Source of the DNA: Candidatus Blochmanniella camponoti
GTDB taxonomy: Bacteria; Pseudomonadota; Gammaproteobacteria; Enterobacterales; Enterobacteriaceae
Length of the DNA stretch: 64,000 nucleotides
Reading direction: 5' to 3'
Assembly: GCF_023585825.1 (NCBI RefSeq)
Contig: NZ_CP097751.1
Location: 726,947-790,946, forward strand
Positions within the stretch are counted from its first letter, which is position 1. Each line of letters begins with the position of its first letter. Both the position numbers and the translations under genes were made by a program. Below, piece after piece: positions 62,179 to 64,000 of this stretch. The notes beneath the pieces are model-generated. The model ran no database searches and was not told the DNA's origin. It saw nothing but the letters and a program-made list of their open reading frames with translations.

Positions 62179-62925
62179 ATGAATATTTTTGACTTATTTT
62201 TAGAAACTAATATTTTAGTACAAATTAGCATATTCGTATTAATTGGATTTTCCATTTTATCTTGGAGTATTATCTTCCATCGTATCTTCGTGTTAAGTTC
62301 AGCACAGCGAAAATTAAAAGTATTTGAAAACGAATTTTGGTCTGGAATAGATTTATCTAGTTTATATCAAAAAGCTGCAGCTCGTCGTAATAAATTAAAT
62401 GGAGCTGAACAAATTTTTTATGTAGGTTTTAAAGAATTTTCTAAGTTATATCAAACAAAACATTGTTCACCCGAAACAATGATGTCTAGAACACTGGACA
62501 ATATGCATACTGCAATAAATATAGAATTAAAATCGTTAGAAGATTATATTCCATTAATAGGTACAATCGGATCCATTAGTCCATATCTTGGCTTATTTGG
62601 AACCGTATTAGGGATTATACACGTTTTTATAGAATTAGGCAAAACAACGACTAACAATGTTGCCACTCAGATGATTCATATACAAATTATTGCACCAGGT
62701 ATTGCTGAATCATTAATTTCTACAGCAATTGGCTTGTTTGTAGCGATTCCAGCGGTTATAGCATTTAATTACTTAACTGCACAAATAAACAATATGGATC
62801 AAGATTATAACAACTTTATAGAAGAATTTATTACGATTCTATATCATCAGATTTTTTTTAATATTGATTCTGCGTTAAACAAGGAAAATCAATATGAAGA
62901 GAAAGCGTATCAGAAACACGATTAA
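62179..62925 (+). CDS. tolQ: Tol-Pal system protein TolQ
   Basis: Proton-channel subunit that, with TolR, energises TolA for outer-membrane constriction. It has 248 residues (E. coli 230). Three helices: about 10-33, 136-158 and 170-195, with GSISPYLGLFGTVLGIIHVF and IAPGIAESLISTAIGLFVAIPA. There is a short insert (TTNNVATQMIHIQ) between helices 2 and 3. The C-terminus is longer than in E. coli, extending 32 bases into tolR. Start ATG has a poor ribosome site. Confidence 0.94.
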   Translation: MNIFDLFLETNILVQISIFVLIGFSILSWSIIFHRIFVLSSAQRKLKVFENEFWSGIDLSSLYQKAAARRNKLNGAEQIFYVGFKEFSKLYQTKHCSPETMMSRTLDNMHTAINIELKSLEDYIPLIGTIGSISPYLGLFGTVLGIIHVFIELGKTTTNNVATQMIHIQIIAPGIAESLISTAIGLFVAIPAVIAFNYLTAQINNMDQDYNNFIEEFITILYHQIFFNIDSALNKENQYEEKAYQKHD

Positions 62926-63319
62926 GTCTGATATTAATATCATACCGTTTTTAGATATATTATTAGTTCTTTTAATGATCTTTATGTTGATACCATCTAA
63001 ATGGATACAAAGCTTTGAAGTAAATCTGCCAAATAGTCCAGTAATACCAAATATTATCAACAATGAAAAACTTATAATTACTATTGAAATTTTAGGAATG
63101 GGATTTTATAATCTCATTGTTAGTAATAAACATGTAGAGAAAGTGCGTTTAGACCAAATTTCATCAGAAATAAGTCATCAAACACACATCGCTCCTAATA
63201 TAACGTGCCTGATCGCTGCTTCAAAAACTGTAGAATACGATGAAATAATTAAAGTATTGAATTTGTTAAATCACATCGGTATACATTCAATTGGAATGAT
63301 AACAAATCCTTCTGTTTGA
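62894..63319 (+). CDS. tolR: Tol-Pal system protein TolR
   Basis: Bitopic stator partner of TolQ. It has 141 residues (E. coli 142). Short basic N-terminus, one helix (about 18-36) with the proton-channel Asp in IIPFLDILLVLLMIF, and a periplasmic domain with TVEYDEIIKVLNLLNHIGIHSIGM-like end (short words TVEYDEI, IGMIT). Start overlaps tolQ by 32 bases. Confidence 0.93.
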   Translation: MKRKRIRNTIKSDINIIPFLDILLVLLMIFMLIPSKWIQSFEVNLPNSPVIPNIINNEKLIITIEILGMGFYNLIVSNKHVEKVRLDQISSEISHQTHIAPNITCLIAASKTVEYDEIIKVLNLLNHIGIHSIGMITNPSV

Positions 63320-63364
63320 GTACGTAACGATATTCTTACATAACTTGGATGATAATTATTAAAT

Positions 63365-63835
63365 TTGTTTAATAGATATTACAAAAAATTTAGATCTGCT
63401 GTTATAATATCAATCATTGCACATGTGATCGTTTCTTTGTTGCTATATAAACATATAATAAAAAAACAACAACAGTACGCTACTAAAATAGCTAATAACA
63501 AAAATTCAATTAATACCTTCATTCACAACTCTAACCAGAAAATAGAAAAAAACAACAACATACAAGATCAATCAAATCGATTCAAACTGACAGAACCACA
63601 GCCTCCATTGGCAGGATCAACGTTGCCAAACACCCCTAAAAAGAAAAATCAAGATCAATCACATCGATTCAAACTGACAGAAACACAGCCTCAATTGGCA
63701 GGATCAACGTTGCCCAACACCCCTAAACAGAAAAATCAAGATCAATCAAATCGATTCAAACTTACAGAAACACAGCCTCCATTGGCAGGATCAAAGTTGC
63801 CCAACACCCCTAAAAAGAAAAATCAAGATCAATAA
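63365..63835 (+). CDS. tolA: TolA-like membrane protein with 29-residue repeats; frame stops inside the repeats
   Basis: Position after tolR and the N-terminus identify TolA: a short basic start, one helix (about 11-32) with the TolQR-contact pattern Ser16-x3-His20 (E. coli S18/H22). TTG start, weak ribosome site. After a Lys/Asn-rich stretch the protein turns at residue 67 into 29-residue tandem repeats (QDQSNRFKLTETQPPLAGS + TLPNTPKKKN). This is unlike the Ala/Lys/Glu helix of E. coli TolA domain II. The frame ends at 157 residues on TAA in repeat 4 (TCA to TAA); a second stop TAG follows (TTG to TAG), after which the same frame is open to the window end. Domain III is not in the window. 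Either a truncated protein, a pseudogene, or a gene rescued by readthrough. Confidence 0.7.
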   Translation: MFNRYYKKFRSAVIISIIAHVIVSLLLYKHIIKKQQQYATKIANNKNSINTFIHNSNQKIEKNNNIQDQSNRFKLTEPQPPLAGSTLPNTPKKKNQDQSHRFKLTETQPQLAGSTLPNTPKQKNQDQSNRFKLTETQPPLAGSKLPNTPKKKNQDQ

Positions 63836-64000
63836 AATCGATTCAAACTGACAGAAACACAGCCTCCATAGGCAGGATCAACGTTGCCCAACACCCCTAA
63901 CAAGAAAAATCAAGATCAATCAAATCGATTCAATCTGACAGAAACACAGCCTCCATTGGCAGGAACAACGTTGCCCAACACCCCTAAAAAGAAAAATCAG
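63563..64000 (+). repeat. 87-bp tandem repeat array inside tolA
   Basis: Five full units start at 63563, 63650, 63737, 63824 and 63911, each exactly 87 bases; a sixth begins at 63998 and is cut by the window edge. Units differ by a few substitutions and no indels. GC content is clearly higher than in neighbouring DNA. All units keep one reading frame (29 residues), but unit 4 carries two stop codons. Confidence 0.95.

Follow-up and report, generated by a model that had tools for sequence, protein, structure and literature searches.

INTRODUCTION

The tolA gene of Candidatus Blochmanniella camponoti raises a question about a protein and about an assembly at once. Between its membrane anchor and domain III lies an 87-bp tandem array, and as assembled this array carries two in-frame stop codons and further differences among its copies. 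Is this a decaying gene, an old and diverged repeat array, or an intact gene whose repeats were assembled wrongly?

The array as such is not new. Tandem repeats in Blochmannia tolA have been in print since 2015, when Williams & Wernegreen tabulated them; of the six Blochmannia species in their table five have an array, and the authors remark that B. obliquus and Escherichia coli are without this repeat region (PMC4389277). Manthey et al. (2022) later described 17 Blochmannia genomes of ∼746–792 kb, assembled from Illumina reads with MinYS (PMC9251289; BioProject PRJNA839641). This program fills gaps by following paths through a de Bruijn graph (PMC7671366).

We conclude, with a probability of about 0.92, that the locus is Blochmannia tolA with a domain II consisting of a homogeneous array of a 29-residue unit, that the copy differences and stop codons are an artefact of assembly at k = 31, and that the real gene is open.

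GENOMES COMPARED

The window, by which we mean the whole stretch of DNA analysed (64,000 bp), is the end of a single circular contig of 790,946 bp. Positions are those of the window and all features lie on its forward strand. The present genome is termed G000 among the 14 Blochmannia genomes compared, G000 to G013. G001 is B. floridanus; the names B. pennsylvanicus, B. turneri and B. vafer for G003, G004 and G012 rest on agreement of their arrays with the 2015 table, and the name B. obliquus for G005 rests on the absence of an array.

RESULTS

A tolA gene in a complete Tol-Pal cluster

Two open reading frames precede the gene: tolQ, of the ExbB/MotA family (62179–62925; PF01618, E 6.5e-30), and tolR, of the ExbD family (62894–63319; PF02472, E 1.3e-13). 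The 5′ part of tolA as assembled (63365–63835) starts at TTG, encodes 156 amino acids and is closed by an in-frame TAA. Its matches to full-length TolA profiles are weak, both below the curated cut-off (NF007065, E 1e-4; TIGR02794, E 9.1e-4), and no Pfam domain matched in the TolA N-terminal region. Domain I (63365–63562) comprises the membrane anchor and a short pre-array stretch. AlphaFold, run on the single sequence of 63356–63832, models a helix over residues 2–75, with block means of pLDDT above 90 for the anchor over residues 21–60; the array begins at residue 70 and is almost structureless in the model (block means 39–61). This confident helix followed by an unstructured stretch bears out the proposal of the first-pass annotation that the array follows a TolA membrane anchor.

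TRF places the array at 63563–63999, with 5.0 copies of an 87-bp unit, 94% matches and no indels; its score of 790 is by far the strongest among the 11 tandem-repeat rows in the window. The unit encodes 29 residues, of which 3% are Ala and 14% Pro, so that domain II has indeed been replaced by a tandem array of a type other than Ala/Lys/Glu. The period is exact, as first claimed, but the units are not: each copy carries two or three substitutions, 12 in all relative to the majority unit, which their spacing and type mark as assembly error. Two of them make in-frame stops in copy 4, a TAA (63833–63835) and a TAG (63869–63871), which we judge to be assembly errors from the type and spacing of the substitutions and a simulation. 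These stops had escaped the first-pass annotation, with the listed reading frame ending at 63835. In the assembled sequence, then, near-identical copies and an open frame are not what is seen: matches stand at 94% with two stops, through differences that we judge to be assembly error.

The last 31 bases of the contig (63970–64000) are the same as its first 31, an overlap counted twice. Across the join the tolA frame continues into 'QNTVEKN...' and then into TolA domain III, whose profile PF06519 matches above its cut-off beyond the window, after the 31-bp overlap (contig C1:221–481, E 8.1e-31; also L002:2–490, E 2.6e-30). The domain III that the first-pass annotation had proposed to look for past the window is there, in frame. 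Downstream of tolA the frames of tolB, an OmpA-domain lipoprotein gene (pal) and ybgF are open, and ybgF keeps its TPR and TolA_bind_tri domains. Since anchor, array and domain III share one frame, with tolQ, tolR, tolB, pal and ybgF alongside, the gene is identified as tolA, and its Tol-Pal cluster as complete. Its membership in TolA stands despite a domain II that is not Ala/Lys/Glu rich, because domain II is known to vary.

The array in other Blochmannia genomes

Clean open arrays, with 99–100% matches, occupy this locus in four relatives: G001 (99 bp × 6.5), G003 (87 bp × 6.0), G004 (81 bp × 4.4) and G012 (102 bp × 5.1). They agree closely with the 2015 table for B. floridanus, B. pennsylvanicus, B. 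turneri and B. vafer, and the TRF scores of G003 (1046) and G012 (1038) are those entered there for B. pennsylvanicus and B. vafer. For B. vafer, the gap at tolA had been closed by Sanger sequencing (PMC3017870). The present array fits this published class, whose units range over 81–102 bp, being 87 bp and in frame between anchor and domain III. G005 is without an array at the locus. The residues ahead of the domain III match number 180 in G005, and in G002 as assembled, both without an array, and 250–353 in the four clean-array genomes. The assembly artefact that the first-pass annotation named among its refuting conditions is thus half borne out: there is a genuine array at the locus, though neither the number of copies nor the differences among them can be trusted in this assembly.

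A 31-bp end overlap is present in seven of the nine genomes unmatched to the published six (G000, G002, G007, G008, G009, G010 and G013). It is absent from G006 and G011, and from the four published-matched genomes examined for it, G003, G004, G005 and G012. The assemblies of G013 (L009/L017) and G006 (L012/L018) are cut inside the array; G007, G008 and G010 (L010, L007 and L008) retain one copy. G011 has its tolA start and domain III in different frames. The array of G013 shows five copy differences, each of them A↔C or G↔T and with one stop among them; exact repeats there reach 62 bp, so the strict signature of no sequence reuse, described below, fails.

In five published-type genomes (L006, L013, L014, L015 and L016) tolA lies at ∼0.52–0.53 of the contig. 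The first codons of three published-type contigs are gidA-like, which suggests a coordinate 1 near the origin; if so, tolA would be near the terminus.

The copy differences look like those of an assembler

None of the 12 substitutions is a transition, and nine are A↔C or G↔T. In orthologous divergence just downstream, transitions make up 71/91, 64/82 and 88/109 of the differences from three relatives (78–81%); at ∼79% expected, the chance of 0/12 is near 1e-8 (hand calculation). The spacing is as peculiar as the type. Successive substitutions are separated by 32, 34, 31, 35, 35, 32, 39, 36, 31, 33 and 31 bp, and under uniform placement the probability that all 11 gaps fall within 31–39 bp is 1.9e-11. 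Every 32-mer of the window is unique, and repeated 31-mers are found at four window positions only, all inside the array (two 31-mers, each used twice). When 12 substitutions were placed at random, the longest repeat was ≤31 bp in 0/5000 trials, and again in 0/5000 with the numbers per copy kept. The longest exact repeats of G003, G001, G012 and G004 are 265–436 bp, and the whole copies of these four arrays show only three copy differences, at two sites, all transitions. By type and spacing, the copy differences of G000, both stops included, look like assembler error.

A mechanism can be proposed. Identical copies would form a ring in a de Bruijn graph, and a path barred from reusing sequence could circle again only by way of error-bearing side paths, each k long and laid nearly end to end. 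The 31-bp overlap of the contig ends fits k = 31. We simulated a non-repeating walk through the k = 31 graph of six identical copies in 36 runs; the walk was random, the longest of 400 tries was kept, the three error densities were arbitrary, and the program was our own rather than MindTheGap. With a rule that forbade repeated 31-mers, where the real walk avoided repeated 32-mers, three of the 36 runs ended at precisely 5.0 copies and 12 variants, spaced 31–39 bp apart. No run gave a gap below 31, and nine collapsed to one copy, as in G007, G008 and G010. From its size and end overlap, G000 probably belongs to the genomes that Manthey et al. (2022) assembled with MinYS; the value k = 31 is our own deduction, the MinYS paper itself having used k of 51–81 (PMC7671366).

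Two other readings take the sequence at its word. If both stops were real, tolA would be a pseudogene, or its two halves would be made as separate proteins. The stops do stand in the given sequence, the array of G013 has one too, and genome reduction favours gene loss. This reading is nonetheless very improbable, for it does not account for how the 12 differences are spaced or of what type they are, a pattern that the simulation reproduces, and each of the five differences in G013 is A↔C or G↔T. Domain III, which lies downstream of the stops, is under strong purifying selection (pN/pS 0.04–0.11 for G000 against four relatives); the Tol-Pal partners are complete, and PF06519 is kept in 14/14 Blochmannia genomes. 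The copies might instead truly differ, as an old diverged array in which homogenisation has ceased. A match level of 94% would suit this, and homogenisation without RecA could be slow, but a diverging array should have accumulated transitions at something like the ∼79% seen nearby, rather than 0/12; the spacing is 31–39 bp throughout, and four published-type arrays in the same RecA-less genus are 99–100% matched. We consider this reading, too, very improbable. Assembly error at k = 31 remains the preferred account, and since the copy differences are almost certainly such errors, copy number and copy variation in G000 carry no information.

Composition of the unit

The first-pass annotation saw in the proline-rich repeat a different mechanical solution for crossing the periplasm. 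The Pro content of the unit is 14% in G000, 17% in G003, 15% in G004, 6% in G012 and 0% in G001, so the feature is not genus-wide. As a shared solution the Pro-rich spacer is rejected: the B. floridanus unit is without proline, and its array is modelled by AlphaFold as low-confidence helices. The mechanical novelty does not generalise.

The array is GC-richer than its surroundings (0.39–0.41, against 0.294 for the window), as had been noted; the recent expansion read from this is unsupported. By codon position the GC of the 29 codons is 0.45, 0.45 and 0.34, with GC3 at 0.18–0.25 in six neighbouring genes. Because the excess lies mostly at positions 1 and 2, it is mainly a consequence of amino-acid composition. 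GC3 is somewhat raised. The unit of B. floridanus, at 0.24, is poor in GC, and neither expansion nor biased conversion is supported as the source of the enrichment.

A conserved core in the unit

The units of 12 of the 14 genomes contain the core R[FL]K[IL], for which tolA of G004 and of G005 gave no match; an extended version, [DE]QS[ND]R[FL]K[IL][TS], fits 8/14 exactly, and the core is present also in the single copy of G002. Over all pairs its pN is 0.16, versus 0.49 for the remainder of the unit, so that it varies less. The core could be a multivalent docking motif, with YbgF, a TPR protein, or some partner in the outer membrane as a conceivable ligand, and its wide occurrence, its survival in one-copy G002, its lower pN and the retention of ybgF with TPR and TolA_bind_tri domains would all fit. 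We nevertheless think this unlikely: the choice of core followed inspection of the sequences, two genomes keep tolA without it, and its pN/pS of 0.69–0.90, depending on the pairs used, means that purifying selection at the protein level is not strong by that measure.

Synonymous change in the core is also low. Between two groups of genomes, pS of the 11-codon core (e.g. 63566–63598) is 0.061 versus 0.414 for tolB, and windows as low are found in 0/445 of tolB and 0/72 of domain III. Over all pairs, 4/441 tolB windows are as low as the core, and the three published-type genomes alone give no clear effect, with 1/7, 2/6 and 2/8 core codons differing versus 0.33–0.38 for tolB. The core uses codons that are uncommon in tolB (TTC and CGA), and exact matches to a 12-base core string, with no mismatches allowed, are confined in the genome to three places in the array. 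A DNA-level element in the core is not upheld, as the all-pairs and published-type tests weaken it and the core was chosen after inspection. A DNA- or RNA-level role might yet account for the low synonymous change.

DISCUSSION

The real tolA of this genome would be open, with near-identical copies. Its array may serve as a weakly structured, sequence-tolerant spacer leading from the TolQ/TolR-driven anchor to domain III and, by analogy, may do the job of the Ala/Lys/Glu domain II of E. coli.

These results serve mainly as a caution. Of the 14 Blochmannia genomes, seven have the 31-bp end overlap, and in another two the array is similarly cut, shortened or frame-shifted. What these assemblies show of tolA, from copy numbers of one to five to stops and frameshifts, is unfit for comparisons of gene loss, pseudogenes or repeat length. 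The signature of the artefact is testable elsewhere: mostly transversions, a spacing of k or slightly more, and no (k+1)-mer repeated.

The biological question that remains is how the array stays homogeneous without RecA. RecA (PF00154) was detected in 0/14 Blochmannia genomes and tyrosine recombinases (PF00589, the XerC/XerD family) likewise in 0/14; control genomes were 14/14 positive for each. With arrays homogeneous within each genome, different between species, and RecA undetected, a route independent of RecA has to be supposed. The usual candidates are slippage and template switching, by which array length in Blochmannia would change. For the tolA repeats of E. coli, contraction is reported as largely RecA-dependent, falling to 15% of the parental frequency in recA, and rescue by TolA, assayed as tolerance of SDS and deoxycholate, as dependent on repeat number and stress (PMC3477136). 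We entertain, tentatively and with more doubt than belief, a fuller picture in which arrays are near-homogeneous within a lineage and their units turn over between lineages without detectable RecA or tyrosine recombinases, to which a role of the core at the DNA or RNA level might add. If true, Blochmannia tolA would be a natural case of RecA-independent concerted evolution of a periplasm-spanning protein.

Among known systems, the present array is closest to those of the 2015 table, with the same gene, the same position after the anchor and the 87-bp unit length listed there for B. pennsylvanicus and B. chromaiodes (PMC4389277). It differs from the array of G003 in unit sequence, and its assembled copies contain errors, with two stops. 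TonB, too, spans the periplasm with a proline-rich spacer and works with an ExbB/ExbD-type motor. The likeness to the present array lies in a Pro-containing spacer combined with such a motor; unlike it, TonB is a different protein, and Pro content is not common to all Blochmannia arrays. The E. coli type of TolA has a domain II that, unlike the G000 array, is rich in Ala/Lys/Glu. In our survey 79 genomes were searched and 60 matched, and the 30 best-scoring loci of these 60 genomes were taken; in the 24 of them in which domain II could be delimited, with approximate boundaries, it is 24–43% Ala, with Pro at 0–1% in 23/24; the remaining one, at 5% Pro, is a 41-residue fragment near a contig start. 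What the present gene does share with E. coli TolA is the plan described there, in which domain II holds tandem units, in frame and variable in number, with the anchor on one side and domain III on the other (PMC3477136).
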